Positions 28,779 through 49,381 of a stretch of 64,000 bases of DNA are shown in pieces. Each line of letters opens with the position of its first letter. The stretch's first letter is position 1. Location: the NCBI GenBank assembly GCA_023150875.1, contig JAKLKC010000001.1, positions 62,001 through 126,000 of the forward strand. The letters are read 5' to 3'. The stretch comes from Myxococcota bacterium (GTDB lineage Bacteria > Myxococcota_A > UBA796 > UBA9615 > JAKLKC01). The translations under genes and the position numbers were made by a program. The notes beneath the pieces were generated by a model. That model was not told where the DNA came from. It saw only the letters and a program-made list of their open reading frames with translations, and ran no database searches.

Positions 28779-29033
28779 TCAGCGGCGGCGGGCCCTGCCG
28801 TCGTCCGGCTGGAGCGCGGCGGAGTCCCCCGCGGGGCGCTCGATCTCGTCCGGCGGGGTGACGTCGATGGCGTCCTGCCCGCCCATCGCCTTGCGGAAGT
28901 TGTGGATCGCCTTGCCGAGGGCGGCGGCGGTCTGGGGGAGCTTCGGCGCGCCGAAGACGAACAGGATGATCACCAGGATGATCAGCAGCTCGCCGACGCC
29001 GGGGAAGCTCCACAGCGCGAGGGGGAAGGTCAT
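28779..29033 (-). CDS. tatA: TatA/TatE-family translocase subunit
   Basis: 84 residues: one N-terminal transmembrane helix (GELLIILVIILFVFG), the FGAPKLP hinge, an amphipathic helix (LGKAIHNFRKAMGG) and a polar tail. This is the standard TatA plan, the pore-forming part of twin-arginine export of folded proteins. The ATG at 29033 has GGAG six bases upstream and a good promoter at 29070-29098. tatC is not in the window. Confidence 0.9.
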   Translation of the reverse strand: MTFPLALWSFPGVGELLIILVIILFVFGAPKLPQTAAALGKAIHNFRKAMGGQDAIDVTPPDEIERPAGDSAALQPDDGRARRR

Positions 29034-29069
29034 GGGAAGACTCCGGCCGCCCGTCGGGACGGCCCGGGG

Positions 29070-29098
29070 ATGATAGTCATCGCGGAGCGCGGCGTCAG
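29070..29098 (-). promoter_or_regulatory. Sigma70-like promoter for tatA
   Basis: Minus-strand CTGACG (29098-29093), 17-base spacer, TATCAT (29075-29070). It lies between the tatA ATG and the target duplication (29103-29110) of the MITE-like element, which inserted only a few bases upstream of the -35 box. Confidence 0.6.
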
Positions 29099-29110
29099 CA
29101 GGGGATCGGG

Positions 29111-29284
29111 CATGCCTATCCGGATGCCACCCAGGGCGGTTCGTGACGACCGCCAGCCGTCGTGAATGGCTCGCCGTCCTTGGCTCGCCCACAGAGGCAC
29201 AGAGCGGCCCGTCCGGGGCCCACAGAGAACACAGAGGGAGGAGCGGGGAGGCCCGGAGCTTTGGGCGGCAAACGGATAGGCAGT
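29111..29284 (+). mobile_element. MITE-like element, copy A (174 bp, non-coding)
   Basis: Ends are inverted repeats: the left end reads CATGCCTATCCG and the reverse complement of the right end reads ACTGCCTATCCG. The pairing extends about 20 bases inward with few mismatches. The element is flanked by an exact 8-bp direct repeat, GGATCGGG (29103-29110 and 29285-29292), as left by transposition. A second copy of identical length lies inverted at 60814-60987. Inside are several CAGAG-containing units. It encodes no transposase and has no convincing coding frame, so it must be moved in trans. Confidence 0.85.
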
Positions 29285-29320
29285 GGATCGGGGACCGCCC
29301 CCCTTCCGAGGGGCCCTCCC

Positions 29321-30595
29321 TCACGACGGCCCGTCGGAGCGGAAGACGATCCGCCCGTCCTTCACCACCGCCGAGGCCGGCCGGTGGCCCAGGGCATAGA
29401 ACAGCTCCCGCCAGTCCGTCACCCGGAAGACCGCGAGGTCCGCCCGGGCGCCGATCCGGACCTGGCCCCGGTCACCCTCGAGGCCGACGGCCCGGGCCGC
29501 GTGGGCGGTGATCCCCGCCAGCGCCTCCTCCAGGGTCAGGCCCATGGCCAGGCAACCCAAGGTCCCCATCAGCAGGAGGTCCGGCGTGGGGGACGTGCCG
29601 GGGTTCCAGTCGGTGGAGACCGCCACCCTCACGCCCGCCCCCCGGAGCGCCCGAGCCGGCGGCGCCGCTGACCGTAGGAAGAGCATCGCCCCGGGCAGCA
29701 GGACGGCGGTGACCCCCGCACCCGCCAGGGCCTCCACGTCCGCCGCCTCCACCCGCTCCAGGTGGTCTGCGGAGGTCGCCCCCAGCTCCGCCGCCAGGGC
29801 CGCGCCGCCGGCGCGGGTGATCTGCTCGGCGTGTACCTTCAGCCCGAGCCCGAGGTCCCGCGCCCGGGTCAGGATCCGCCGGGACTCCGCGGCGCTGAAT
29901 GCCTCCCGCTCGCAGAACACGTCGCAGAACCGTGCCAGCCCCTCCCCCACGACCCGGGGCAGCATCTCCTCCACCACCTCGTCGACGTAGCGCCCGCGGT
30001 CGGAGCGCCTCTCCGCCGGGACGGTGTGGGCTCCGAGGAAGGTGGGTACCAGGTCCCAGGGCCCCTCCCGGTCCAGGTCCCGCACCACCCGCAGGATCCG
30101 GAGCTCCGTCTCGGCGTCCAGGCCGTAGCCCGACTTCACCTCCACGGTGGTGACTCCCCGGGACAGCAGGGACTCCAGCCGGGCCCGGGCCAGCGCCCGC
30201 AGCTCCCCGTCGGACGCCGCCCGGGTGTGCCGTACCGTGCCCAGGATCCCACCCCCCTGGCGCAGGATCTCGGCGTAATCCTCCCCCGCAAGGCGCCGGG
30301 CGAACTCCCCGGCCCTGGAGCCTGCGAAGACGATGTGGGTGTGGCACTCCACGAGGCCGGCGGTGATCACGCCCCCCGCCGCGTCCAGGACTTCGCATCC
30401 CGGCCCCGGGGCGAGGGCCTCGGGCCAGGCACCGTCCGTCCCCACCCAGGCGATCCGGTCCCCCGCGCAGAGCACCGCGCCCCCGGCGACCACCTCGGGG
30501 GGCCCCCCGTCCGGCGAAGAGACCACCTGGGAAGCACCCCGGATGACGAGGGACGTCGCCGCGGCGGGCGGTGTCGGGCTCGGGTTCGGGGTCAC
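29321..30595 (-). CDS. hutI: Imidazolonepropionase
   Basis: Third step of histidine degradation, hydrolysing imidazolonepropionate to N-formimino-glutamate. 424 residues of the amidohydrolase superfamily. The metal-binding HxH is His85/His87 in ECHTHIVFAGSR, followed by RLAGEDYAEILRQGGGI, VEVKSGYGLD, and STDWNPGTSPT, all highly conserved in HutI. The start is GTG at 30595. hutH, hutU and hutG are not in the window. It starts 55 bases after the upstream lipoprotein gene and could be read from that operon. Confidence 0.95.
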   Translation of the reverse strand: MTPNPSPTPPAAATSLVIRGASQVVSSPDGGPPEVVAGGAVLCAGDRIAWVGTDGAWPEALAPGPGCEVLDAAGGVITAGLVECHTHIVFAGSRAGEFARRLAGEDYAEILRQGGGILGTVRHTRAASDGELRALARARLESLLSRGVTTVEVKSGYGLDAETELRILRVVRDLDREGPWDLVPTFLGAHTVPAERRSDRGRYVDEVVEEMLPRVVGEGLARFCDVFCEREAFSAAESRRILTRARDLGLGLKVHAEQITRAGGAALAAELGATSADHLERVEAADVEALAGAGVTAVLLPGAMLFLRSAAPPARALRGAGVRVAVSTDWNPGTSPTPDLLLMGTLGCLAMGLTLEEALAGITAHAARAVGLEGDRGQVRIGARADLAVFRVTDWRELFYALGHRPASAVVKDGRIVFRSDGPS

Positions 30596-30650: not shown

Positions 30651-33482
30651 TCAGGGAGGAGGCGCGTTCGCCTCGTCGTCCCAGGCCCCCGTGCCCGCGG
30701 CGACGCACTCGGGGTCCTCGGCGTCGATCAGGGCGTCGCCGTCGTTGTCCGCGCCATCGTTGCACTGTGCCGTGCCGGGGCCCACCTCGTCGGCGGCGGC
30801 GTCTACGCAGTCGGGGTCGGCGGCGTCGATCCAGCCGTCCCCGTCCTCGTCCGTCCCGTCGTTGCAGCCCGTGGTGCCGGGGCCCACCTCGTCGGCGGCG
30901 GCGTCCACGCAGTCGGGGTCGGCGTCGTCGGTCCACCCGTCCCCGTCGTTGTCGAGCCCGTCCTCGCACCCTCCCGGCGGAGCGTCTCCCTCGCCGCCGT
31001 CGGCCTCCACGCACTCGGGGTCCAGGGCGTCGATGGACCCATCGAGGTCGTTGTCCAGCCCGTCGTTGCACTCGGCGGTGCCGGGGCCCACCTCGTCGTC
31101 GCCGGCCTCCGTGCAGTCCGGATCCGCGGCATCGGTCCAGCCGTCCCCGTCCTCGTCGGCTCCGTCGTTGCATCCGGTGGTGCCGAGCCCCACCTCCCGG
31201 CTCTCGGCGTCGACGCAGTCCGGATCGTCCCCGTCGGTCCAGCCGTCGCCGTCCCCGTCCACGTGGTCGGAGCAGTTGTTGGAGTCCTCGTCGTCGTCCA
31301 GGCCGTCGTCGCAGCCCCGGTCGTCCTCGTCCACCTCGCCGTCGGCGTCGTTGTCCACGCCGTCGTTGCAGTCGTAGGCCGCGTTGGTGCCGCCCTCGGA
31401 CTCCAGCAGCGCGTCGTAGACCAGCTCGCCCGTCGCGTCGTCCACCCGGTAGCAGCCGGGGTCCTTCTCGTCCCTCCAGCCGTCGGCGTCGTCGTCGACG
31501 CCGTTGTTGCACTGCGTAATCCCCTCGAACATCCCGTCACCGAGCCCACAGCCGGGATCCGCGCCGTCCACGAGCCCGTCGCCGTCGTTGTCCACCGCGT
31601 CGTGGCAGTTGTCGGTGTTCGAGAAGATCGTCACGTCGAGGGTCTTCACGTCCACCACCATGTTGCCGAGCGCCGTCATGGGGATCTTCTGCACCCGGTG
31701 GTGGTTGATGTACAGGTAGGCGCTGTACCGGGTGGAGACGTACTCGTCGTCGGCGACGGTGGAACCGAACGGGAACATGGAGGGCGGCGCCTTGGCCAGC
31801 TCCCGTGCGGGGATGCAGAGCCCCCCGGAGCGGTGCCAGGCGAAGGCGGTCAGGCGGAAGACCTCGAAGGTCCCGAAGAAGTTGAACGGCATCATGTCGT
31901 CCCACACCCGGAAGTCCACGGTGTAGTAGTCGTTCTTCGACATCTTCCGCTCGCCCTCTTCGGTGTCCCAGCGCACCAGCAGCCCCGGACAGGTGCTGGG
32001 GGTCTCGGGATCGAAGGCGTCCCAGTCCACCTCCACGTCCTTGAGCTCGTCGAGGGTCCCCACGCCGATGTGAACGGCTCCGATGGTGGAGGCGAGGTTG
32101 CCCCCGTCGGGCAGCAGCGTGAGGTTGTTGACGCTGCCGATGTCCATGGGGGGGATGGTGATGGCCCCGGCGGCGTTGATGTCCTCGATCTTCTCCAGGC
32201 CCTGGGCGCACTCGGCCCCATAGTCTCCGGCCTCGAAGTTCACGCCGTAGGAGTAGGAGGCACCCCAGGACATGCACATCGGCTTGTCGAAGGGCGCGTT
32301 GTTGGGGCCGAGGAAGTCGTTGGTGTAGTACCGGATGTCGCCGTCCCAGCGCATGTCGATGCCATTCTGGCCGGGAAGGGTCACGCTCTCGGCCCCCGAA
32401 GAGAGCTCCAGGGCGGTGAAGGTCTCGTAGTCGAGGCAGTTCCCCTCCTCCAGGGGCCCGGAGGGCTGGTTGTTGAACCCCAGCTCCCTCTGGTCCTCGC
32501 AGACCTGGGCGAAGTAGCTGCCCCCCGGGAGTCCCATGACGGGCTCCTTGAAGTAGAGGGTCACCTTCCCGACGTCGCCGCCCCCGCCCTCGATCCCCTC
32601 CAGGGCGAAGAAGCAGTATCCGTCCACCTGGGTGGCGTCGGGGGTGTTGTCCCCGTCCGTGTCCACGTCCACGGGGTCGCAGTCCGCCCCGGGCGCCGCC
32701 ACCTGGAGCTGGAGCACTCCGGCGTCGGTCCCGATGGGGTCCTGCACGTTGTGCCTGTTCCGGTAGAAGCGGATGAGGTCGCCGGCCTGGACCCGGTTGA
32801 CGTCGGGGGGCGCGAAGGCCCGAGGGGGGATCTGGGCCCGGATCCCCGTCGTCGAGGCGACGCTGTCCGGGTTGCCTCCCCAGAAGGTCGCCCCCCGCGG
32901 GGACGGCTGGCTGTTCAGGAAGCCGTAGCCGCCGACGAAGGGCACGCCGCCGAAGAGGGTGCTGTCGTAGTACTGGAGGCTGAACGACCCGATCTCGTCA
33001 TCGAAGAGGCTGGCGTACTCCACCGCGGTGTTTTCGCTGCCGGGGATCCGGCTGGAGACCCGGTAGTCGTACCCGTCGTCCAGGCTCGCCACGCCGTGCT
33101 CGCAGCCGACCCGCACGTCGACCTTCCCGGTCTGGATCGGACCCGGCGGGGAGATCACCGTGATGACGTCGTCCCGGAGCTCCACCGAGGTGTCGCAGAA
33201 GTCCCGGAGGGCGTCGAGGTTGGCGTCCGTCACCACCGTGGCGTTGCGGTTCCCGAACACCACGGACGGCCGCTGGCACTGGCTCGGGTCGTCGACCTCG
33301 ATCCGGACCACGTTGCATCCGGTGATCCCGTCCTCGAAGGCGGGCGTCATCGAGACGATCTCGGGGGGATCGCCCGAGTAGTACGGCTCGGCCTCGCCGC
33401 AGCCCGCGAACGCGAGCCCGGCGGCCAGCGCCACCCGGCCGAGGCGGCGGGTGGGACGTCCCGGGGGGGAGGGATGTCGCAT
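30651..33482 (-). CDS. Large lipoprotein with nine Cys-bracketed calcium-binding repeats
   Basis: 943 residues, lipid-anchored through a FAGC lipobox. The N-terminal 600 or so residues form a beta-rich region with many Cys and no family I recognise. From about residue 626 to the end run nine acidic repeats near the pattern CNDGxDNDxDGxxDxxDPxC, related to thrombospondin type-3 calcium loops. Three of the later ones lie in near-identical 34-residue units. Such repeats are common in myxobacterial surface proteins and are thought to be calcium-stiffened stalks. The ATG at 33482 has GGGAG upstream. It is the last gene of the four-gene surface operon beginning at 40377. Confidence 0.82.
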   Translation of the reverse strand: MRHPSPPGRPTRRLGRVALAAGLAFAGCGEAEPYYSGDPPEIVSMTPAFEDGITGCNVVRIEVDDPSQCQRPSVVFGNRNATVVTDANLDALRDFCDTSVELRDDVITVISPPGPIQTGKVDVRVGCEHGVASLDDGYDYRVSSRIPGSENTAVEYASLFDDEIGSFSLQYYDSTLFGGVPFVGGYGFLNSQPSPRGATFWGGNPDSVASTTGIRAQIPPRAFAPPDVNRVQAGDLIRFYRNRHNVQDPIGTDAGVLQLQVAAPGADCDPVDVDTDGDNTPDATQVDGYCFFALEGIEGGGGDVGKVTLYFKEPVMGLPGGSYFAQVCEDQRELGFNNQPSGPLEEGNCLDYETFTALELSSGAESVTLPGQNGIDMRWDGDIRYYTNDFLGPNNAPFDKPMCMSWGASYSYGVNFEAGDYGAECAQGLEKIEDINAAGAITIPPMDIGSVNNLTLLPDGGNLASTIGAVHIGVGTLDELKDVEVDWDAFDPETPSTCPGLLVRWDTEEGERKMSKNDYYTVDFRVWDDMMPFNFFGTFEVFRLTAFAWHRSGGLCIPARELAKAPPSMFPFGSTVADDEYVSTRYSAYLYINHHRVQKIPMTALGNMVVDVKTLDVTIFSNTDNCHDAVDNDGDGLVDGADPGCGLGDGMFEGITQCNNGVDDDADGWRDEKDPGCYRVDDATGELVYDALLESEGGTNAAYDCNDGVDNDADGEVDEDDRGCDDGLDDDEDSNNCSDHVDGDGDGWTDGDDPDCVDAESREVGLGTTGCNDGADEDGDGWTDAADPDCTEAGDDEVGPGTAECNDGLDNDLDGSIDALDPECVEADGGEGDAPPGGCEDGLDNDGDGWTDDADPDCVDAAADEVGPGTTGCNDGTDEDGDGWIDAADPDCVDAAADEVGPGTAQCNDGADNDGDALIDAEDPECVAAGTGAWDDEANAPPP
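30705..31607 (-). repeat. Coding tandem repeats (calcium-loop units)
   Basis: DNA encoding the nine acidic repeats. In the part nearest 30705-31210 the units recur at about 102 bp (34 residues) with high identity, for example the CVDAAADEVGPGT block twice in succession, which implies recent tandem expansion. This region is prone to length change and to misassembly from short reads. Confidence 0.75.
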
Positions 33483-33511
33483 CTCTGTAGGCTCCCGCTT
33501 CCTCGTGGCGC

Positions 33512-35122
33512 TCACGGCTGGTACGCGAGGCGGCCGACCACCATGTGGGAGGCCCGCAGTCGGACGGGGTTGATGTCCGCGGCACCGCCCGTCTCGTTGC
33601 GGACGAGGGGCAACTGCACCAGGTCCTCCCGCGTGCGGCTGACCACCAGGATCGCGCCCCGGACGCGGCTCATGTCGACCCGGGCCTCCAGGGACTCCAG
33701 GTCGTCGGCGCCGATGGTGAAGCTGCCGTCGTCGGCGGCGGTGCAGACCAGCTCGCCCACGAAGCCGTCGGTGTCGCGGCTGCCCCCGGTGGGCTGACAG
33801 GTCAGGGCCTCGGGGTCGCACTGGGAGATGGGGTAGAGCCGCGGGCACTCGATGTCCGGCGGCAGCCACTCCCCCAGGGATCCGTAGCAGCCCGTGCTGT
33901 CGCAGCCCCCGTCACCGTCGTCGTCCAGGCCGTTGGCGCAGTCCATGGGATCGGTGGCCGTGGCGCCGAAGCCCTCGTGCCCGTCGTCGATGCCGGCCGC
34001 GGCGAGGGCGGCGTACTCGGGGTCGCAGTCGTCGACGGCGTTGCCGTAGACGTCCAGGACCGGCGCGCCGCTCCCGTCGGTCTCGATGGTACAGCCGCAC
34101 TGGCGACCCGGGTCGTCGGGGCACGGCACCGTCGTGCCGTCGGGCACGGAGCCGAGGAGCCGGACCGCGACGGTCACCTGCCCGCCCCCGTCCTCGTCCA
34201 GAGCCACCCAGCCGACGTTGAGGAGCGCGCCCGACGTTCCGTCCCAGGGACTCGGGAGACCCGGAGACTCGGCGTCGAACTCCACCGGGACGGCGCCGCT
34301 CCCGTCCTCGGAGGTCGAGACGACGAGGCCGTCCAGCTCCGAGGGCGTGGTGATGCGCGGGCTCTCCGCCGTGGTCTTCCCGGCACGCTCGTCGATGACG
34401 TCGCTGGGCAGGGGGATCGAGGCGACGGGCGCGTTCTCGGGCGGGATCCCCCCCCCGAAGTACAGCTCCATCTCCTCGTCGAACGCCCAGTTGGACGCCA
34501 GGTGCTCCTGGGCCCACCCCAGCGGGTCGGCGTCGATGTATTCCCGGGCCAGCCAGGGCTGGGCACCGATGTAGTAGATGAAGACGTCCGAGGTCCGCTC
34601 CGGGTAGTCCAGGGGGTTCCGATCCAGGGTGAATCGGGTCCGCTTGCCCGCCGACGCCCGGTCCCGGATCTGCATCCCGTCCCCGAGGTCCACGGTCGTG
34701 AAGCTGCCCAGGGGGCCCACGTTGTTGATCAGCGGGAAGCAGGTGTCGATGGCGTCGGGGCCCTTGGGGCTGACCAGGCTGACCTCGTCCGCGGCCGTCA
34801 GGGCGGGAGTGAACACGTAGGAGAAGCCGAACACCGCGTGGAAGGGATCCTCGGCGCTCGTGAACGCGTCCCCCGCCCCGTAAAGGCCGGTGATGGTCGA
34901 CCCGAAGTCCAGCCACCGTCCCCGCAGGTCGACGAGGGCGTAGTCGATCAGCCCCCCCCGCGGCTCGGGAGTGGACTGGATCTGCCCGGGTTCCAGCCCG
35001 ACGCCGATCTGCTTCGACCCCGCGGGGGAGGAGTCGTGCCCGCAGCCCCAGAGGGCCATGGCCGCGCCGGCCCCGGAGAGGGTGAGGCCGATCCGCGAGG
35101 CAGGGCGAAGAAATGAACGCAT
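33512..35122 (-). CDS. Surface lipoprotein, unknown function
   Basis: 536 residues with a signal peptide ending in a LWGC lipobox. The mature protein is beta-rich with scattered Cys and one short calcium-loop-like segment (CANGLDDDGDGGC), akin to the repeats of the next gene's product. I recognise no enzyme motif. It follows the 1360-residue fusion gene by 42 bases and precedes the repeat lipoprotein by 29 bases, so all are likely co-expressed. Probably a partner subunit on the outer membrane or cell surface. ATG at 35122. Confidence 0.75.
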   Translation of the reverse strand: MRSFLRPASRIGLTLSGAGAAMALWGCGHDSSPAGSKQIGVGLEPGQIQSTPEPRGGLIDYALVDLRGRWLDFGSTITGLYGAGDAFTSAEDPFHAVFGFSYVFTPALTAADEVSLVSPKGPDAIDTCFPLINNVGPLGSFTTVDLGDGMQIRDRASAGKRTRFTLDRNPLDYPERTSDVFIYYIGAQPWLAREYIDADPLGWAQEHLASNWAFDEEMELYFGGGIPPENAPVASIPLPSDVIDERAGKTTAESPRITTPSELDGLVVSTSEDGSGAVPVEFDAESPGLPSPWDGTSGALLNVGWVALDEDGGGQVTVAVRLLGSVPDGTTVPCPDDPGRQCGCTIETDGSGAPVLDVYGNAVDDCDPEYAALAAAGIDDGHEGFGATATDPMDCANGLDDDGDGGCDSTGCYGSLGEWLPPDIECPRLYPISQCDPEALTCQPTGGSRDTDGFVGELVCTAADDGSFTIGADDLESLEARVDMSRVRGAILVVSRTREDLVQLPLVRNETGGAADINPVRLRASHMVVGRLAYQP

Positions 35123-35164
35123 GCTCGCTCCGGTGTCCGTGCGGTCGAAGTGACGCCGCCGGTC

Positions 35165-38100
35165 CTACCAGCCCGTGCCGATACCGACGAAGAACCGCAG
35201 GCCCGCGGGCTCGGTCTCCGCCGAATTGGTGTTGATGTTCGGGTCGTCGGTGTTGGAGTAGACGTTGTCGCCGTCGACGTCGCCGAGGCCGCTGATCTTG
35301 TTGAACCCATACGCCAGGCGCATGTAGCAGTCCCAGGGCGACCGGTTGAAGAGGTTGGCCGAGAGGCGGACCTCGAGGCCGGCGTCGAAGAGCAGGTAGT
35401 TGCCGTTCTGGCTGGCCTTGTCGACGAAGGGGATCTCGCGTCGGACGTCGTCCGGGTCCAGGGCGACGTGATCGCTGAACACCGACTCCGTCTTCGCCCC
35501 GTCCCTCAGCCTGTAGCTCCAGAGGTTGCCCGCCGTGCCGAAGAACTGGGCGTACAGGCTGTCCAGGTAGAGGATGCCCACCTTCTTGTCGATGTCCCGG
35601 AACAGGGGGAACCGATAGGCGGCGTTGAGCATGATCATCGTCTCGCCCGCCAGCGAGTAGGGCGGGAACCCCGAGAAGAGGGAGTTGGACTGCCAGGGGT
35701 TCCGCGCGTAGTTCAGGCCACCGCCCCCCGCCCGGAACTCGTCGCTGTAGCCGACGTTGCGGTCGACGAAGCCCGCCCGGAAGTCGAGCTGGAGGGTGTG
35801 GTCCAGGGACTTGCGGGCAGTCCGGATCTCGATGGGGATGTACTCGGCGTATCCGAACTCGACCTCGTTGTACCAGTAGTCGTCGAGGTACTGGTAGTCG
35901 TCCACCTCGAGGCCGTTGGTCGCGGCGTAGAGGTTCTTGGAGTAGTTCACGGACCACGCCAGGGACAGCCGCCGGCCGCCCCGGGGGTTGATACGGAACC
36001 GGGGGCTGTAGAAGTAGTAGTCCGAGAAGCTGTTGAGCCCGGTGGAGATGGTGTTCCGGGCCTTGTAGGCGTAGGGGTCGTAGGCGTTGCCCTCGGACGT
36101 CCCCCGGAAGCCGTACGAGTAGCTGATGTGCCCGATCTCGAGCTGCCAGTTGGGGTTCAGGGGCACGTCCACGCTGGCGCCACCCACGACGAGGTACTGG
36201 GTGTTCTTGAGGTCCCCCGTGAACTGGTCGTCGGTGGTCGCCGTGTTCTCGTCCCGGTCGAAGAAGAAGCCATAGTCGTACTTGAAGGCCCCATAGGTCC
36301 CGAAGAAGGAGACGTTGGGCCAGAGGTGCTTGAGGGTCACACCGCCGGAGAGGTAGGTGACCTCCCCGAACAGGGCGAGGAAGTAGGCGCTGGTGTCATC
36401 GAGGTAGGTGTCGGTGAGGAGCTGGATGCCCGCGTTGACACCCATGTGGGACTGGAGATCGGCCTGCACGTCGATGATGGGGACCACGAAGGGGGGCCGG
36501 ATGTGGATCCCGCTGGTCTTCACCTCGCTGGTCTGGGCCTGGTACGAAGGGATCTCCTCCTGCACGTCGAGCTTCACCATCGTCAAGGGGAAGTCGAGGG
36601 CGGCGTCGTCGGCGATCCGCTCCAGGAAGGCGTGGCGGGGAAGCCCGTAGCCCTTCCAGCCGAAGGCGGTGTACCCGGAGTAGACGATGTTCCCCTGGGG
36701 GGTGAGCCAGGGGGTGAAGGCGCCACCGACCACGTTGGAGACCTGTACCAGTCGCGCCCGGCCGACGGCGCCCACGGGGGCCGCCGCCGTCGAGCGGGCC
36801 ATCGGGGCCGCGACGACCGGCTCCGGGGAGTTCTCCGCGACCGCCACCGGGGTCACCGTCTCGTCCCTCTGCAGGACCATGAACTGAACGCGCCGGTTCT
36901 TGGCCCGGGCGGCCTCGTCGGCGCCCTGGATGAGGGGGACGGACTTTCCGTAGCCCTTGGCCCCGAGGCGACCGGGATCGATGCCGACTCCGGAGACGTA
37001 GGTCCGCACCGCCTCGGCGCGGGCCTGGCTCAGCTTGAGGTTGTGGGCGTCGTTGCCCTGGTCGTCGGTGTGTCCCTGGATCTCCAAGGACTTCACGTCG
37101 GGGTACTGGCGGAGGATCGACGCCACCGCGTCCAGCACGCGATAGGACTCCGGCTTGATCGTCGCCTGGTCCAGGTCGAAGAAGACCTGCTCGGTGATGA
37201 CGATCTCCTTCCGCTCCGCGTCCAGGCGGGCGGGGGAGGCGTCGGGGCATCCGTCCTGATCGTCGATGCCGTTCACCGTCTCGGGATCGTCGATGCACTT
37301 GTCCTGGGCGTCCACCAAGCCGTCGCGGTCGGAGTCGTACGCCTTGGGGTCGTAGTACGGGTTGTGCCGGAAGATGTTGAAGATCCCCCCCACCCGGTCG
37401 CTGGAGAAGTAGATGTAGCCGTCGTGTCCCCAGTGGACGTCCCGGTCCTCGTACTTGTCGAACGTGATGGGGGTCAGCCCGGTCCCGTCCACGTCGATCA
37501 CGTAGACGTCAGCCTGGTTCTGGCGGAATCCGCCGAAGACGAGCTGCCGGCCGTCGGGCGACCAGTCGATGGTCTCCACCCGGTTGCCGTCCTTCCAGTG
37601 GGTGAGCTGCCGGGGCTCGCCGGTCGCCAGGTCGACGACGATCAGGTTCTGGGTACCGTCCTCGAACCGCGAGAAGGCCACCGACTTGCCGTCGGGGGAG
37701 ATCGCCGGGTCCTGGGGCCGCATGGTGCCCGGGATGTGTACCGGCTCGGTGAAGGCGAGCTGCGTCTCCTTGCCCTTCTTCTTCTCGTACAGGTCCGCGG
37801 TGCACAGCATGTTCAGCTCGAACCCGCCGTGGACGTTGGCGAAGAGGCCCGTCTTCCGCGCGAACTTGCCCATCAGGCGCTCGGGGCACACGAAGACGAT
37901 GCCGGATCCGTCGGGCTTCCAGTCGTACTGCGACGCGGCCGGGATCCCGCCCAGGTAGTCCGAGAGGTCCGCGGTCCGCTTCTGGCGCTCCTTGGCGACC
38001 TCGGCGTCCTCGCTGTTGCCCCACGTCCCCGAGAAGGCCGGCCAGGCGTCCTCGGGGACCTCCTGGACGGTGATCTGGCCGAAGTAGTCGTAGGAGCTGA

Positions 38101-39247
38101 AGTAGCGACCGTCGGGGCTGTATTGCTGGAACAGGTTGTGGCGCCCGTCGGCCTCCTTCTTCTTGCGCTTCTCGAGCTTCCGGTACTTCTCGAAATCGGC
38201 GCGCACCTGGGGATCGTCGCTGTCCCACGGCGGCCGGCTGAAGGCGAGTGGCTCGCCGATGGCGGGGGCCTTCATCACCTCCGCCTCGACCCTCTCGTAC
38301 TTCTCCGTCGCCCACTGCTTCCAGCCTTCGTAGAGCTCGTCGGCGCTGACGTGGAGGGTGTCCTCGATCACCGACATCCAGTCGGGCTCCCAGCCCTTCT
38401 TGGAGCGGTTCAGGGCGAAGCTCTGATACACCCCCTGCCCGAACTTCTCCTCGAGGTAGAGGGCGAAGTTGTATCCCTCGTTGTAGTGGCGCTCGCCGTC
38501 GAAGCCACCGTTGGCCCCGTAGTAGTCCTGCATGTCGCCGAGGGTCAGCAGCGTGCCCTGGAGGATGTCCATCCGCATGAACATGTCGCGGTTGGAGCTC
38601 CAGTTGTTGATGCCCGCGGTGTCGGTGTAGTACTCGGCGCCGCCCTCCACCCAGAACCAGGGAGGCCCGCCGGAGACGAAGACCTCGGCGCCGACGTCGG
38701 TATTGTTGGCGACGTCGAACCAGCGGGTCGCCAGGTACCAGCCGAAGCCCTCCTCGGCGTAGGTGCCCTCCGCCTTCAGGGAGACGACGTGGGCGTACTC
38801 GTGGTACAGCACGACCCGCAGCCAGTCGTGGTGTCCGCGCCACCTCCAGAGGAGGTCGCTGTGGTGCGTGGAGATCACGATCCAGTCCCAGTTGGGGACG
38901 GTGTAGCCCTCGAGCTCGTCGAGGTACTCCAGCATCACGATGTTGACGGTCTCCTTCAGGTAGAAGTTGAACTGGCCGCAGATCTTCGGGTACATCTCCT
39001 CCGCGACCAGCGCCGTCTTCCGGGCCGACCACTCGCCGTTGACGTAGTGCTCGTTGCCCTGCTCCCTCGTCTTCTTGCTCACGGGATAGAAGACGTTGAA
39101 GTGCTCGGTCTGGATGACGTACCAGTCGAGCCCCGGGTAGTTGTAGTAGGAGGTGAACTTCGCGGCGTGTGCCGGCGATTCGCCGAAGGCGAACACCGCC
39201 GCGACGAGCGCGACGGCGCCGAGCAGGCTTCGGAGGCGGCGGAGCAT
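35165..39247 (-). CDS. Giant exported fusion: gluzincin-type protease, beta-propeller, OmpA domain, outer-membrane barrel
   Basis: 1360 residues. Signal peptide with AHA cleavage near residue 28. A peptidase-MA-like domain has His149-Glu150-Tyr-Ala-His153 (LYHEYAHVV) and WVEGGAEYY (Glu201). A WD40/PD40-type propeller follows at about 525-625 (ISPDGKSVAFSRF, WSPDGRQLVFGGF). Next come a short thrombospondin-3-like loop (DSDRDGLVDAQDKC) near 640 and an OmpA-type peptidoglycan-binding domain at about 680-795 (VFFDLDQATIKPES, IQGHTDDQGN, AKNRRVQFMV). Further propeller-like strands lead into an aromatic-rich, alternating beta-barrel-like C-terminus (about 890-1360). The ATG at 39247 has GGGAG seven bases upstream; an earlier in-frame ATG at 39298 is less likely. 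Confidence 0.83.
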   Translation of the reverse strand: MLRRLRSLLGAVALVAAVFAFGESPAHAAKFTSYYNYPGLDWYVIQTEHFNVFYPVSKKTREQGNEHYVNGEWSARKTALVAEEMYPKICGQFNFYLKETVNIVMLEYLDELEGYTVPNWDWIVISTHHSDLLWRWRGHHDWLRVVLYHEYAHVVSLKAEGTYAEEGFGWYLATRWFDVANNTDVGAEVFVSGGPPWFWVEGGAEYYTDTAGINNWSSNRDMFMRMDILQGTLLTLGDMQDYYGANGGFDGERHYNEGYNFALYLEEKFGQGVYQSFALNRSKKGWEPDWMSVIEDTLHVSADELYEGWKQWATEKYERVEAEVMKAPAIGEPLAFSRPPWDSDDPQVRADFEKYRKLEKRKKKEADGRHNLFQQYSPDGRYFSSYDYFGQITVQEVPEDAWPAFSGTWGNSEDAEVAKERQKRTADLSDYLGGIPAASQYDWKPDGSGIVFVCPERLMGKFARKTGLFANVHGGFELNMLCTADLYEKKKGKETQLAFTEPVHIPGTMRPQDPAISPDGKSVAFSRFEDGTQNLIVVDLATGEPRQLTHWKDGNRVETIDWSPDGRQLVFGGFRQNQADVYVIDVDGTGLTPITFDKYEDRDVHWGHDGYIYFSSDRVGGIFNIFRHNPYYDPKAYDSDRDGLVDAQDKCIDDPETVNGIDDQDGCPDASPARLDAERKEIVITEQVFFDLDQATIKPESYRVLDAVASILRQYPDVKSLEIQGHTDDQGNDAHNLKLSQARAEAVRTYVSGVGIDPGRLGAKGYGKSVPLIQGADEAARAKNRRVQFMVLQRDETVTPVAVAENSPEPVVAAPMARSTAAAPVGAVGRARLVQVSNVVGGAFTPWLTPQGNIVYSGYTAFGWKGYGLPRHAFLERIADDAALDFPLTMVKLDVQEEIPSYQAQTSEVKTSGIHIRPPFVVPIIDVQADLQSHMGVNAGIQLLTDTYLDDTSAYFLALFGEVTYLSGGVTLKHLWPNVSFFGTYGAFKYDYGFFFDRDENTATTDDQFTGDLKNTQYLVVGGASVDVPLNPNWQLEIGHISYSYGFRGTSEGNAYDPYAYKARNTISTGLNSFSDYYFYSPRFRINPRGGRRLSLAWSVNYSKNLYAATNGLEVDDYQYLDDYWYNEVEFGYAEYIPIEIRTARKSLDHTLQLDFRAGFVDRNVGYSDEFRAGGGGLNYARNPWQSNSLFSGFPPYSLAGETMIMLNAAYRFPLFRDIDKKVGILYLDSLYAQFFGTAGNLWSYRLRDGAKTESVFSDHVALDPDDVRREIPFVDKASQNGNYLLFDAGLEVRLSANLFNRSPWDCYMRLAYGFNKISGLGDVDGDNVYSNTDDPNINTNSAETEPAGLRFFVGIGTGW

Positions 39248-39300
39248 GCGGACTCCCGGCACGGCGGTGCGGGTCATGGGCGGCGCGAGGCGACGCATGT

Positions 39301-40377
39301 TCAGAACCGGAAGGCGACGTCACCGCCGGCGGTGACGCCCCGGGACGGGCTGATGTCTTCGAGGGGCCAGTAGAAGGTCGAGTTCTTCCCCGCGAGCGTG
39401 TACGCGACGAAACCGTCGATCTGCAGGCGGTTGCTGGGCGACACGCTCACCCCTCCCCGAAGGTCGGACCAGAAGCCGGAGCTGCCCTCGATCTCGGCGC
39501 ACCCGTGGCAGGGGTCGATGTGCTTGGCGGTGGACCCCTGTCGGGTGGGGAGCCGATACTCGTTCTGGAAGTCCAGGCTCAGCGCCACGTAGGGCCCGAG
39601 CTGGCCGATCACGCCGATGTCGAACTCGATCCCGTCGCCGGGGTCCACCCTCATGTTGAACTGGTTCTCCTGGTCCTCGACGAGGTACTGCACCACGGAG
39701 CTGAACCGCGCGACGAAGCCCGCGCGGCCCTGGATGGCGATGGGACCGGCCTGCTGCCGGGCCAGGACGTCGAGGGTGAGGTTGTACGTCCCCGTTCCGA
39801 TGGGCACGTAGGTCAGGTTGCCGGGGGACGAGAGGTAGCTCCCGGGGGACTCGTTGCCGGTGGGCGTCTTGAGCTCGAGTCCGGCGGCGAGGGAGGCGTT
39901 GGCCTTGCCCTCGGGATCGATCCTGCGGGCGATCTGCTGCCTCACCCCCAGGCGGACGTCCCCCAGGCCCCAGGCGGTCAGGTCGGCCCCGTTTTCGTTC
40001 CCGACGTGGGCCCAGACGAACGGGATGCGAAGGAAGAGCTGGGAGTTCTTGGTGAACCCCCAGTCGACGTCGAGGTGGAACTGGCGGTAGGACCAGGTCG
40101 CGCCGTTGCTGTAGCTCCGCCAGTCCTCCCCCTCCTTCGCCCCGAAGTTCCACGGCTCGTCGTCGTCGCCGGTGAAGTAGGAGCTGGACTGCTTCCAGTC
40201 GAAGCCGGCGGAGAGCTGGAGCACCCCCTTGCCGACGACCAGCGGCCTCTCGACGAGGCGCAGGGGCAGGTCGGCCTGGTAGGTGTGCGTCTGGAACGCG
40301 CTCGCCTGGGCCGGTTCCGCGGCCAGGGCGGCGAGGGCGGCCACGACGAAGGCCGCGGCAGCTTTCATCGCTTTCAT
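39301..40377 (-). CDS. Outer-membrane beta-barrel-like protein
   Basis: 358 residues with a Sec signal peptide (MKAMKAAAAFVVAALAAL, cleavage near AQASA). The mature sequence alternates polar and hydrophobic or aromatic residues in strand-length blocks and ends in a strand closing with Phe (GGDVAFRF), a typical barrel C-terminus. It resembles transporter- or porin-like barrels, but I cannot assign a substrate. It is the first gene of the four-gene surface operon, 53 bases ahead of the giant fusion protein. ATG at 40377, with a second ATG three codons later. Confidence 0.78.
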   Translation of the reverse strand: MKAMKAAAAFVVAALAALAAEPAQASAFQTHTYQADLPLRLVERPLVVGKGVLQLSAGFDWKQSSSYFTGDDDEPWNFGAKEGEDWRSYSNGATWSYRQFHLDVDWGFTKNSQLFLRIPFVWAHVGNENGADLTAWGLGDVRLGVRQQIARRIDPEGKANASLAAGLELKTPTGNESPGSYLSSPGNLTYVPIGTGTYNLTLDVLARQQAGPIAIQGRAGFVARFSSVVQYLVEDQENQFNMRVDPGDGIEFDIGVIGQLGPYVALSLDFQNEYRLPTRQGSTAKHIDPCHGCAEIEGSSGFWSDLRGGVSVSPSNRLQIDGFVAYTLAGKNSTFYWPLEDISPSRGVTAGGDVAFRF

Positions 40378-40714: not shown

Positions 40715-40785
40715 CCCGCTGTCAATTGTTTGTGAATCGGGTACTTGCAAGGATCCGGCTCCTCTCCCCGCCGCCGGGATCCACC

Positions 40786-40814
40786 TTGCTCGGCCCGGGG
40801 GGGTGTGTTAGCTT
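40786..40814 (+). promoter_or_regulatory. Sigma70-like promoter for the nucleotidase operon
   Basis: TTGCTC (40786-40791), 17-base spacer, TAGCTT (40809-40814). Transcription should start near 40821, about 110 bases ahead of the ATG at 40930. Confidence 0.6.
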
Positions 40815-40817
40815 GCG

Positions 40818-40843
40818 CCCCCTTTCGGCGCCCCGAGAGGGGG
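40818..40843 (+). promoter_or_regulatory. Hairpin at the 5' end of the nucleotidase operon message
   Basis: CCCCCTTTCGG (40818-40828) pairs with CCGAGAGGGGG (40833-40843) through 11 base pairs (one G-U) and a four-base loop. It sits at the predicted transcription start, so it could stabilise the mRNA 5' end or act in regulation. Confidence 0.45.
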
Positions 40844-40929
40844 GCGGGTCGGGGCTCCCACCCCTTCCGCCGCCCTCCGGGGAGCCGGCGTGGCGCGGCA
40901 CCAGCCGCGCCGGAGCGGGTCGACGCGCG

Positions 40930-42687
40930 ATGAAGCCCCCCCAGTGTCCCCCGGGTCCGCTCGCGGTCGTCGGTCTCGTGGCCGCGGTGGCCTCCGCCGG
41001 CTGTACGGTCCGGGGGTGGGACCCCGACCTCGCCGGTCAGGACGTCCGCCTGACCATCCTGCACACCTCCGACATCCACTCCCGCCTGATCCCGTACGCC
41101 TACACCCCGAACTTCACGGAGCAGGAGCAGCTCGGCCTCGACCCCGATCGCGGGCCGTTCGGGGGGATCGCGCGGATCGCCCACATCGTGGGGCGCGAGC
41201 GGGCGCGGGCGCAGCGGGTCCTTCACCTGGACAGCGGCGACTGCTTCCAGGGGGCCCCGATCTTCAACGTCTTCGGTGGCGAGGCGGAGGTCCGGGCCAT
41301 GAGCGAGCTGGGCGTGGACGCCGCCGTCGTCGGCAACCACGAGTTCGACCGGGGCGCGGCGAACCTGGCCGACCAGCTCGACCGCTGGCTGGGGTACCGG
41401 GCCCTCGCGGCCAACTACCGTTTCGACTCCGACGAGTTCCCCTGGAACACCACCCTCGACAGCCTGGTGGACGAGGTCGCCATCTTCGACCTCGACGGCC
41501 TGACGGTCGGGGTGATCGGAATGGCGAACCTCAGCTCCATCTCGAGCATCGGCGAGGGGGACAACTCCCTGGACGTCGAAGCCCAGGGGGACCTGGACAC
41601 CACCGAGGCGTGGGGCGCGGCGCTGGAGCCCCTGGTGGACCTCACCGTGGTGGTCAGCCACCTCGGCCTCGAGAACGACGAGGAGATCGCCCGCCGGTCC
41701 CGGTACGTCGACCTGATCATCGGCGGGCACCTCCACGTCGCCATCGACCCGCCCAAGGTCATCGAGAGCGAGGCGATCCCCGGCAAGCGGATCGTGGTGT
41801 GCCACTCCGGGGCCTTCGCCAAGTACGTCGGGCGCCTGGACCTCGTGATCCGGGACGGCGAGGTGCTCACCCACGACTACACCCTGTTCCCGGTCGACTC
41901 CACGGTGCCCGAGGACCCCGACATGCTCGACCTGATCCGCCCCTACGAGGTCGAGATGGCGCGGGTCATCGAGCTGGACCGCGTGATCGGCGTCGTGGGG
42001 GACCTGGACGGCGACGGCCAGGTCCAGGGCACCGACGAGGAGGAGTTCGAGCTGGACCGCTTCGCGCCGTCCGGAGGCGACTCCCCCCTCGGCAACCTCA
42101 TCGCCCACGCCATCCAGACCCGGAACCTCGTCGAGACCGACTTCGCGGTGACCAACAGCCTCGGGATCCGCACCAACATCCAGGCCGGCGACGTCACCCT
42201 GGAAGAGCTCTTCAACGTGCTGCCCTTCGACAACGCCATCACCACCCTGTTCTTGTCGGGGGAGGAGGTGCAGGAGCTGTTCGACTACGTCACGGAGCGC
42301 TCCGCCTCCCGGGGCTGCAACACCCAGGCGCAGATCGCAGGGGCCCGGTTCGTGATGAACTGCGAGAGCGGCCTCGCCGAGCAGGTGACCGTCGGCGGCA
42401 CGTGGCAGCCCTGCCAGTCCGACGGGGACTGCGACCTCCCCACCGAGCGTTGCTCCGCGGGGGCGTGTGGGGTGCCGGTCTTCCCGGGGTACGAGTACGA
42501 GCTCGCCACCAACGACTACATCGCCTACGGCGGATCGGGCTTCGACGTGCTCGAGCGGAACACGACGAAGGTGGACACCGGGATCTCCTTGCGGGACGCG
42601 GTGATCGACTACATCGAGGCCCACCCTCGACTGCCCGCGGACGCCCCGGCGGCGGAGTCCGACGGGCGCATCACCCCGGTCTACTGA
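40930..42687 (+). CDS. UshA-like 5'-nucleotidase/metallophosphoesterase lipoprotein
   Basis: 585 residues, anchored by a SAGC lipobox (Cys25). The N-terminal metallophosphoesterase domain has LHTSDIHS, a DSGDCFQG block, GNHEFDRG and GGHLH, the dinuclear-metal motifs of the 5'-nucleotidase/UshA family. The C-terminal domain has SLGIRTNI and LFNVLPFDN, matching the substrate-binding domain. Two insertions are unusual: a calcium-loop segment DLDGDGQVQGTDEEE between the domains, and a Cys-rich CQSDGDCDLPTERC segment near 495-515. It should hydrolyse extracellular nucleotides or related phosphoesters. First gene of a four-gene operon. Confidence 0.9.
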   Translation: MKPPQCPPGPLAVVGLVAAVASAGCTVRGWDPDLAGQDVRLTILHTSDIHSRLIPYAYTPNFTEQEQLGLDPDRGPFGGIARIAHIVGRERARAQRVLHLDSGDCFQGAPIFNVFGGEAEVRAMSELGVDAAVVGNHEFDRGAANLADQLDRWLGYRALAANYRFDSDEFPWNTTLDSLVDEVAIFDLDGLTVGVIGMANLSSISSIGEGDNSLDVEAQGDLDTTEAWGAALEPLVDLTVVVSHLGLENDEEIARRSRYVDLIIGGHLHVAIDPPKVIESEAIPGKRIVVCHSGAFAKYVGRLDLVIRDGEVLTHDYTLFPVDSTVPEDPDMLDLIRPYEVEMARVIELDRVIGVVGDLDGDGQVQGTDEEEFELDRFAPSGGDSPLGNLIAHAIQTRNLVETDFAVTNSLGIRTNIQAGDVTLEELFNVLPFDNAITTLFLSGEEVQELFDYVTERSASRGCNTQAQIAGARFVMNCESGLAEQVTVGGTWQPCQSDGDCDLPTERCSAGACGVPVFPGYEYELATNDYIAYGGSGFDVLERNTTKVDTGISLRDAVIDYIEAHPRLPADAPAAESDGRITPVY

Positions 42688-47134: not shown

Positions 47135-49381
47135 TCAGGGGACCCGGAAGCGGAGGGGGCGGGAGTCGCGGCCGAAGGAGCCGCGGGGGGCGTCGTCGGG
47201 TCGGGACACGTCGATCCAGTACTCCACCTCCTGGACGTCCGGGGGGACCCAACCCGAGAGGGGCAGGGCGGCCAGGAGGGTGCCGCCGGACCCCGCCATC
47301 ATCTCGATCCGGGACCAGGCCGTCGCGCCCCGGGGGCGGGCGTGGACCGTGCCCCGGGCGGGGCCGCCCTGGTGGAGGGTGACGGTGAGGAGGACGGCGC
47401 CGTCCCGGGGTGCCGACTCCACGGGGCGGTGCCCCCAGGCCACCCCCGGCCCCTCCACCCGGACCTCCGGTCCGAAGCGGACGACGGCCGGCTCCGGGGC
47501 CTCGGTGGGACGCAACGGCGAGGGCGCCGGGGGGCGGACGCCCGCCTCCCCCACCCTTCCCGAGGGCGCGGCCGGCTCCAGGATCCACGACATGGTGAAG
47601 AAGGTCACCACCAGCGCGCTCACCAGCACCGCTACCCCGGCCAGGAGGATGCGGTCGGTGAGGTCGCCGACGCGGCGGGGCGGCTCCGCGGGCGCGCCAT
47701 CCCACGCACGGGCCCACTCGGCCTCGGCCTCGGCGGCGGTGACGGGTTCCGTCGGCCTCCCCAAAGGTGTCCCGGCGGCGGGGGGATCGGGAGGGCGCGG
47801 GGGCGGCGGGGCGATCCGGGGCAGGGGCGGCGACGGTATGGGATAGCGATCCCCCGGACCGGGCGCGGGGGCCCGGCCGGCTCCGCCCCCCGGCGGACCC
47901 GCCGTGCCTGGGAATGACGGCGCGGGCCCGGGGATGGGGGCCTCGGCCTCCCCTCCGTCGATGTCGTCCCGGGCGGGCGGGGCCTCGTCCTCTACGGGAG
48001 GGGGCGGAGATGAGACTTCCCCCTGGGGCGGAGATGGGGGCCGGGGATCGGCGAAGTCGGGGCCCCCCTGGGGATCCTGCTCCTCGTCCTCGGGATCGGG
48101 GAGGAACAACGGGGGCGGCAGCGCCGCGGGAGCCTCCCCCGCCGCACCCCCCTTGCGAGCCCCGGGGGCGTGGGGGCGGGCCGGCGCGGCGACCCGGGCG
48201 ACCGCCGCCGCGGCCACCTCCGACACGTCCTCCAGGGTGAGGTCGGGGAGCTGGGGCAGCTCCAGGGAGATCTCCGGCAGGGTCGGGGCGGGCCGCATCG
48301 CCGCGAGCTGCTCGATGGTCCGGGTCCCCGCGGGATCGACGTCCAGCTCCATGGGTCCGCCGGCCGGGGCCTCCATGTGGGGGAGGGTGCTGAAGAACGC
48401 GCGGGTGCTCCGGGCGGCGGCGAGGTCGTCCCGTTCCGGCGCGTCCAGGAGGTCCAGGTCCACGTGGGCGGGGGAGAGGCCGGCGAGCAGGGACGAGAGG
48501 CGCCCCCCCCAGGGGTGGCGGGGCTTCAGGGCGGTGAGCTCGGCGGCGAGGGCCTCGGCGGTGGGCTGGCGGTCGCCGGGTTCCTTGCTGAGGCAGCGCC
48601 TCAGGATGGGGACGAGGTCGGGGAAGGCGGCCTCGACGCGGGCGAGCCCGGGTTCCACGTCGCAGCGGAGGGCCCGGTTGAGGATCGCCATGAGGTTGTC
48701 GTCCTCGAAGATGGGGCGGCCGCAGGCCAGCTCCCCGAGGACGGCACCCAGGGCGAAGATGTCGCTCCTCCGGGTGAGATCCCCCCCGGCGATCTGCTCG
48801 GGCGACATGTACAGGGGCGTGCCGCGGGTGATCCCGCCGGGCGCCGTCTGGTAGGCGTTCAGCCGCGCCTTGGCGATCCCGAAGTCCATGATCTTCAACA
48901 GGTCGTGGCGGGAGATCATGAAGTTGTCGGGCTTGACGTCCCGGTGCACCAGGTCCAGGGCCCGCCCCCCCTGGCTGACCTGGTGGGCGTGGTGCAGCCC
49001 CCGGCAGCCCTGGATCCCGATGTCCAGGACGGCCCCCCGGGGGAGCTTTCCGGCGCGGGCGACGACCTCCCGGAGGCTGACGCCGTCCACGTACTCCATG
49101 GCGATGTAGCAGCGGTCCCCCACCTGCCCGCACTCGTACACCTCGATGATGTTGGGGTGCTTGAGGAGGCCCCCCAACCGAGCCTCGTTGACCAGGGAGC
49201 GGAAGAAGCGCTCGTTGGCCGCCGAGATCCGGTGGTGGACCACCTTCAGCGCGACCTCCTTGCGGAAGTTCCAGGGCCCCTGGAACTCCGCCCGGTACAC
49301 CCGGGCGAAGGAGCCCTCTCCCAGCGACTCGCGGATGCGGTAGGGGCCGAACTGCACGGGGATGGGGCCCGGGTCGGGCAT
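47135..49381 (-). CDS. Membrane Ser/Thr protein kinase with extracytoplasmic C-terminal domain
   Basis: 748 residues. An N-terminal Hanks-type kinase domain (about 13-275) has the Gly-rich loop LGEGSFARVYRAE, Lys46 (VALKVV), HRDVKPDN (Asp148), DFG (Asp166) and GTPLYMSPEQ, so it should be active. A long Pro-rich linker follows to about residue 570. One transmembrane helix lies near 573-598 (GVAVLVSALVVTFF). A beta-rich domain of about 120 residues would lie outside the cytoplasm as sensor. The ATG at 49381 gives the standard start. About 165 bp around the start codon are duplicated at 50152-50311. Confidence 0.92.
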   Translation of the reverse strand: MPDPGPIPVQFGPYRIRESLGEGSFARVYRAEFQGPWNFRKEVALKVVHHRISAANERFFRSLVNEARLGGLLKHPNIIEVYECGQVGDRCYIAMEYVDGVSLREVVARAGKLPRGAVLDIGIQGCRGLHHAHQVSQGGRALDLVHRDVKPDNFMISRHDLLKIMDFGIAKARLNAYQTAPGGITRGTPLYMSPEQIAGGDLTRRSDIFALGAVLGELACGRPIFEDDNLMAILNRALRCDVEPGLARVEAAFPDLVPILRRCLSKEPGDRQPTAEALAAELTALKPRHPWGGRLSSLLAGLSPAHVDLDLLDAPERDDLAAARSTRAFFSTLPHMEAPAGGPMELDVDPAGTRTIEQLAAMRPAPTLPEISLELPQLPDLTLEDVSEVAAAAVARVAAPARPHAPGARKGGAAGEAPAALPPPLFLPDPEDEEQDPQGGPDFADPRPPSPPQGEVSSPPPPVEDEAPPARDDIDGGEAEAPIPGPAPSFPGTAGPPGGGAGRAPAPGPGDRYPIPSPPLPRIAPPPPRPPDPPAAGTPLGRPTEPVTAAEAEAEWARAWDGAPAEPPRRVGDLTDRILLAGVAVLVSALVVTFFTMSWILEPAAPSGRVGEAGVRPPAPSPLRPTEAPEPAVVRFGPEVRVEGPGVAWGHRPVESAPRDGAVLLTVTLHQGGPARGTVHARPRGATAWSRIEMMAGSGGTLLAALPLSGWVPPDVQEVEYWIDVSRPDDAPRGSFGRDSRPLRFRVP

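Follow-up and report, generated by a model that had tools for sequence, protein, structure and literature searches.

The window analysed here, a stretch of 64,000 nucleotides from a Myxococcota bacterium (GenBank assembly GCA_023150875.1, contig JAKLKC010000001.1, positions 62,001 to 126,000), carries on its minus strand an open reading frame (ORF) running from 39247 to 35165, which encodes 1360 residues plus a stop codon; an alternative in-frame ATG at 39298 would give a product of 1377 residues. The predicted protein joins a gluzincin-type protease domain, a TolB-like β-propeller and an Omp85-fold barrel, and within the propeller lies an inserted module with an OmpA/Pal-like domain. Its parts were assigned as follows.

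39161..39247, minus strand: signal peptide, residues 1-29 (MLRRLRSLLGAVALVAAV...SPAHA), with a charged start, a hydrophobic core and an AHA-A end, read by eye as Sec type
38258..39160, minus strand: gluzincin-type protease domain, residues 30-330, with HEYAH and E201 and with profile matches in relatives
38789..38803, minus strand: HEYAH zinc-binding motif, residues 149-153
38633..38653, minus strand: WVEGGAE, residues 199-205, with E201 as the putative third zinc-ligand glutamate
37355..38140, minus strand: TolB-like β-propeller, first part, residues 370-631, by PD40 match and TolB fold match
36755..37354, minus strand: inserted module, residues 632-831, where relatives have a three-residue turn
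37232..37339, minus strand: TSP3-like Asp-rich segment, about residues 637-672 (DSDRDGLVDAQDKC...), by motif
36893..37183, minus strand: OmpA/Pal-like peptidoglycan-binding domain, residues 689-785 (PF00691), with D728 and R743
36608..36754, minus strand: remaining part of the propeller, residues 832-880, by alignment and model
35168..36499, minus strand: Omp85-fold outer-membrane barrel, residues 917-1360, a predicted fold of about 16 strands

Pfam searches of the window protein matched PD40 (1.4e-6, 28.5 bits, cut-off 20.9) and, at residues 689-785, OmpA (PF00691, 65.3 bits, cut-off 27.2), the latter at 6.7e-18, which rules out chance similarity. The top NCBIfam matches were to several families through their OmpA part and to TolB at 514-627, and among the matches listed none reached its whole-protein cut-off, including the Pal equivalog TIGR02802 (77.6 bits, cut-off 125.35), the TolB equivalog TIGR02800 (68.2 bits, cut-off 343.15) and PorE, NF052230 (78.4 bits, cut-off 600). 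A TSP_3 Pfam match was not listed for the window protein; its paralogue G000:C159 does have TSP_3.

Comparison of 141 related genomes revealed that the best homologues from outside the window's order match residues 1-631 and 832-1360 and have about three codons in between. For the insert-site count 35 family ORFs were taken. An insert of 192-240 residues was found at reference positions 632-831 in all six complete copies from the window's order, which comprises seven genomes (the copy in the seventh, G006, ends at a contig edge before the insert site), and three residues stand at this site in 29/29 ORFs from outside the order. An assembly artefact or gene fusion error was ruled out, since six genomes carry the insert at the same site on open frames. 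Named genomes were also scanned with the protease alignment, and the best 80 of 120 relatives were used; 77 of these 80 loci span the site, five with an insert and 72 with 0-4 residues, and three are cut. The five insert-bearing loci correspond to G001-G005 of the window's order. The records of the 80 loci include Deltaproteobacteria, Myxococcota, Proteobacteria, Oligoflexia, Bdellovibrionales, Neomarinimicrobiota/Marinimicrobia, Calditrichota and KSB1, and the parent architecture of protease, propeller and barrel, without OmpA, is widespread. Within the window's phylum the protease profile matched 101 of 377 genomes at 1e-20, and in 20 distant homologues that we chose from this list no OmpA insert was found (0/20). 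When the OmpA-module profile was run on 135 family ORFs (20 + 35 + 80, the sets overlapping), the 11 matching rows came down to six genes, five of which appear twice. The window's genome holds a second family member (L209, at G000:C91:58500-63500) of 1034 residues, which is without the insert.

A core tree was built from 57 rows and 1129 columns with the insert excluded, and comprised the window protein, the complete copies among L059-L115 and five more distant members. The six insert-bearers formed one clade (SH-like approximate likelihood-ratio test, SH-aLRT, 100, by a quick method). As far as these sequences tell, the insert was gained in the ancestor of one order, and it was found in that order only. 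Three public records of metagenome-assembled genomes titled Klebsiella pneumoniae (L070, L075 and L087) also carry the family, and these titles look wrong, because the core tree puts the three among Deltaproteobacteria/Myxococcota.

In the model, strands at residues 622-628 and 833-835 flank the module, so that it would occupy the turn joining the final two strands of a single blade. In relatives this turn mostly reads ETG, ATR or ATG, and a strand of xxxQLTNV type comes next. All six inserts contain GHTD and an Arg 15 residues on (D728 and R743 in the window protein), the same spacing as that of Asp271 and Arg286 of Acinetobacter baumannii OmpA, which are described as binding diaminopimelate (PMC5974059). 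The pair has been kept under divergence, since the window insert is only 44-47% identical to the other five.

The origin of the module was approached with a tree of 46 TSP3-OmpA modules, of which 40 were from OmpA paralogues picked from longer lists. The window insert grouped with its own porin-type paralogue G000:C159 (L145, L189; bootstrap 99, SH-aLRT 94), and the other five inserts grouped together (100/100). Placing all six inserts in one clade gave a tree 8.8 log units worse, which was not rejected (approximately unbiased (AU) test, p 0.188). These sequences are hinting at either one gain followed by replacement in the window's lineage or two insertions at one site. The best paralogue of the window insert is again G000:C159, at 56-57% identity; it combines a small barrel with TSP3 repeats and an OmpA domain, and the inserted module is thus of porin type. 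The upstream barrel gene was also tried as module source and rejected, its product having no significant BLASTP similarity to the C159 barrel (E 0.34).

The predicted zinc site of the window protein comprises H149, E150, H153 and E201, that is, an HExxH motif with a downstream Glu as in gluzincins, and the context WVEGGAE at 199-205 indicates E201 as the third-ligand glutamate. H-E-H is kept in 79/79 covering relatives among the 80 loci, partly by construction, as the scan pattern was HE[FY][AGS]H[VI][VI]SL; the E201 column, which lies outside the pattern, is E in 79/79 as well, and HExxH is present in all 20 further distant homologues, which were collected by profile rather than by pattern. 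Peptidase_MA_2 and Peptidase_M9 each match 4 of 19 family members and neither matches the window protein. A sequence search of solved structures with the protease part returned weak collagenase matches alone (best 0.012), and the reported fold-search rows, which span 303-848 of the residue 29-905 model, do not cover the protease part, so that the fold class of this domain rests on the motif and weak profiles. By these sequence features the window protein is a predicted metalloprotease of gluzincin type, clan MA.

Two overlapping AlphaFold2 models cover the chain, one of residues 345-1360 (mean predicted local distance difference test (pLDDT) 82.3, predicted template modelling score (pTM) 0.70) and one of residues 29-905 (pLDDT 86.0, pTM 0.79). 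In the structure alignments 13 of the 80 loci, being cut or gappy, were omitted, and 8 near-copies were also omitted from A3 and A4, where 59 relatives were kept. The propeller matched TolB structures with Z-scores of 21-24 over about 233-249 aligned residues, the insert being skipped (2ojh, 23.8-24.2 over 247-249 residues; Escherichia coli TolB, 1crz, 23.3-23.4 over 236-237 residues), and the insert matched OmpA/Pal structures with a template modelling score, normalised by target, of up to 0.86. From residue 920 onward the model has about 16 strands, a predicted fold that matched BamA/Sam50 with Z-scores of 19-21 over about 280-325 residues (Porphyromonas gingivalis BAM, 21.1 over 297; Deinococcus radiodurans BamA, 20.9 over 316; E. 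coli BamA, 20.3 over 319). Omp85 (PF01103) matches 2 of 19 family members (best 4e-8) and leaves the window protein unmatched at 0.1. At a position matched by eye to what we take to be the (V)RG(F/Y)-type motif of Omp85 proteins, the window protein reads FSGFP and the family consensus FAGYP, with G and F/Y kept and R lost. The C-terminus is therefore described here as a predicted Omp85-fold barrel.

Much of this had been outlined in the first-pass annotation. It named a HEYAH gluzincin domain, PD40, OmpA and a barrel in this order, which is borne out by motif, Pfam and the AlphaFold2/BamA fold match, and the C-terminal barrel it proposed is what structure prediction returned. Its calcium loop is TSP3-like by motif, its placing of OmpA between propeller segments can be refined to a single turn that has three residues in relatives, and its remark that a built-in wall anchor is unusual agrees with the presence of the insert in one order only.

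The gene stands in a run of four minus-strand genes (30651-40377) encoding a small barrel, the protease-propeller-barrel protein, a lipoprotein and an acidic double-disulfide protein, with intergenic gaps of about 30-55 bases.

39301..40377, minus strand: upstream partner P0003, small outer-membrane barrel, conserved in position, with a weak profile in relatives
33512..35122, minus strand: downstream partner P0002, putative lipoprotein, conserved in position, with a cysteine after the signal peptide
30651..33482, minus strand: next gene P0004, putative lipoprotein with acidic double-disulfide repeats (NF033662, 9 stretches, 6.7e-48)

Neighbours were counted at loci L059-L116, those with room for a neighbour. 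A P0003 homologue lies immediately upstream in 53/54 such loci and a P0002 homologue immediately downstream in 42/49. Four of five scanned P0003 relatives gave a weak Phenol_MetA_deg match. Many P0002-type downstream proteins share the N-terminal pattern ...C...VKxVGVGxNPDEIGPxP; a strict lipobox test was passed by 27 of 52 downstream proteins, and many of those that failed show the cysteine by eye, without an early Lys/Arg. Most relatives, judged by eye, have a cysteine after the signal peptide. Judged by gene order, the barrel-protease-lipoprotein cassette is conserved, and it offers, in Myxococcota-type genomes, a lead on the envelope biology of uncultured lineages. Elsewhere the window encodes a TatA/B/E protein (28779-29324, minus strand), an amidohydrolase (29321-30595, minus strand), a 5′-nucleotidase with a metallophosphatase domain (40771-42687, plus strand) and a Ser/Thr protein kinase (47135-49381, minus strand).

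We read the window protein, with moderate confidence, as an outer-membrane metalloprotease of a protease-propeller-Omp85-barrel family. On this reading a TSP3-OmpA module was added at one of its propeller turns, and the protein would act as a wall-tethered periplasmic protease. Peptidoglycan is periplasmic, and the Asp/Arg pair is kept in all six inserts; together these suggest that the propeller most probably lies on the periplasmic side, as does, by continuity, the protease. Sec would export the protein and the β-barrel assembly machinery (BAM) would fold its barrel into the outer membrane, from which the protease and propeller would hang into the periplasm. Binding of the OmpA module to peptidoglycan may then keep the catalytic part in the space that separates the outer membrane from the wall, where the propeller could select or gate substrates and the protease could clip or mature envelope proteins; misassembled outer-membrane proteins or the neighbouring lipoprotein(s) are plausible substrates. 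Handling of envelope proteins is our best guess for its role. The wall-binding insertion would serve as a natural topology marker: if the module binds peptidoglycan, then the whole family would have its propeller, and probably its protease, in the periplasm, and sidedness becomes testable for a protease-propeller-barrel family that is broad and has been little described. The insertion also shows that a single propeller turn can accept a whole module of about 200 residues.

Several observations weigh against our reading of the window protein. The insert-free parents manage without a wall anchor, which would make it dispensable for the core function. The window protein has no match to any Pfam peptidase or Omp85 family at listing threshold, so that both assignments rest on relatives, motif and fold. 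A P0002-type lipoprotein was not found adjoining 7 of the 49 loci, and near loci L117-L138 (mostly Neomarinimicrobiota) homologues of neither P0002 nor P0003 were found; for these two reasons the substrate guess is a weak one. The protease and propeller might instead cross the outer membrane and act on proteins outside, with OmpA as a spacer that does not bind the wall. We consider such a surface protease, which the first-pass annotation had put forward, unlikely: it is disfavoured by an Asp/Arg pair suited to periplasmic peptidoglycan and kept in 6/6 inserts despite the 44-47% identity of the window insert, and the N-terminal domains of Omp85 proteins lie on the periplasmic side. The fold of the protease domain cannot tell the two sides apart, and Heinz and Lithgow (PMC4104836), in the text available, do not settle the topology of Omp85 enzyme fusions and give PlpD as a case of surface delivery. 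In principle an N-terminal domain could pass to the outside by way of the barrel, a route proposed for PlpD.

The first-pass annotation also offered a Tol-Pal-like machine in one polypeptide. The folds uphold this comparison, as the propeller best matches TolB structures, among them chains from the TolB/Pal complex, and the insert is OmpA/Pal-like; the idea of replacement does not hold, because the window's genome keeps its own TolB (395.7 bits), Pal (127.5 bits) and BamA (527 bits), each over cut-off, and the window protein therefore does not stand in for them. A covalent TolB-Pal unit, in which the inserted OmpA docks on the propeller like Pal on TolB, switches to the wall and so senses or regulates the distance between outer membrane and wall, is in our view rather improbable, since the genome retains its own TolB and Pal and the module is closer to the TSP3-OmpA porin (56-57% identity) than to Pal (TIGR02802, 77.6 against 125.35 bits). 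The Omp85 fold and the conserved small-barrel and lipoprotein neighbours would also fit a wall-anchored Omp85 translocator for neighbouring lipoproteins, that is, a factor for barrel assembly or secretion with the protease in a secondary role; the catalytic residues kept in all covering copies, with HExxH in all 20 distant ones, and the VRGF/Y-type motif reading FSGFP/FAGYP without its arginine make this very unlikely. Equally speculative, and offered as a long shot, is a single-chain switch, in which OmpA would dock on the propeller of its own chain as long as it cannot reach the wall and release on peptidoglycan, the spacing of membrane and wall toggling the protease; if true, this fusion of a zinc protease and an Omp85 barrel with TolB and Pal would be both sensor and effector of envelope integrity.

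No known family with exactly this domain order was found in the literature searched, and the order is undescribed in its titles and abstracts, most subscription journals lying outside that coverage. The parent family resembles the WD40-Omp85 subfamily described by Heinz and Lithgow (2014, PMC4104836), in which a TolB-like propeller precedes an Omp85 barrel. In the available text of that paper POTRA is unmentioned, the subfamily is described without a protease domain or OmpA insert, the 'Metallo' subfamily is PF00149, and the words 'peptidase' and 'OmpA' are absent from the main text. PorE, from the type IX secretion system (PMC7192894), likewise lies in the periplasm with a link to the outer membrane, and has both a propeller and an OmpA_C-like domain that binds the wall; as given in the available text it is lipid-anchored, has the order TPR-propeller-CRD-OmpA, with OmpA at the C-terminus, and has neither protease nor barrel. 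The TSP3-OmpA porins (G000:C159, L189; 57% identity) represent the source-type of the inserted module, but carry it C-terminally, after a small barrel. TolB-Pal shares the TolB propeller fold and the OmpA/Pal-type domain but consists of two separate proteins, whereas the window protein is one chain with protease and barrel. BepA is a separate soluble protein with TPR instead of a propeller, and its M48 assignment is not common to the window protein. The likeness to BepA lies in its working, as a periplasmic M48 metallopeptidase at an Omp85 machine, BAM, that handles outer-membrane proteins, as far as described in the available text (PMC8423444). The window protein combines features of WD40-Omp85, PorE and BepA in one chain, and its OmpA-bearing form is a variant specific to one lineage within a family that is broad and poorly described.

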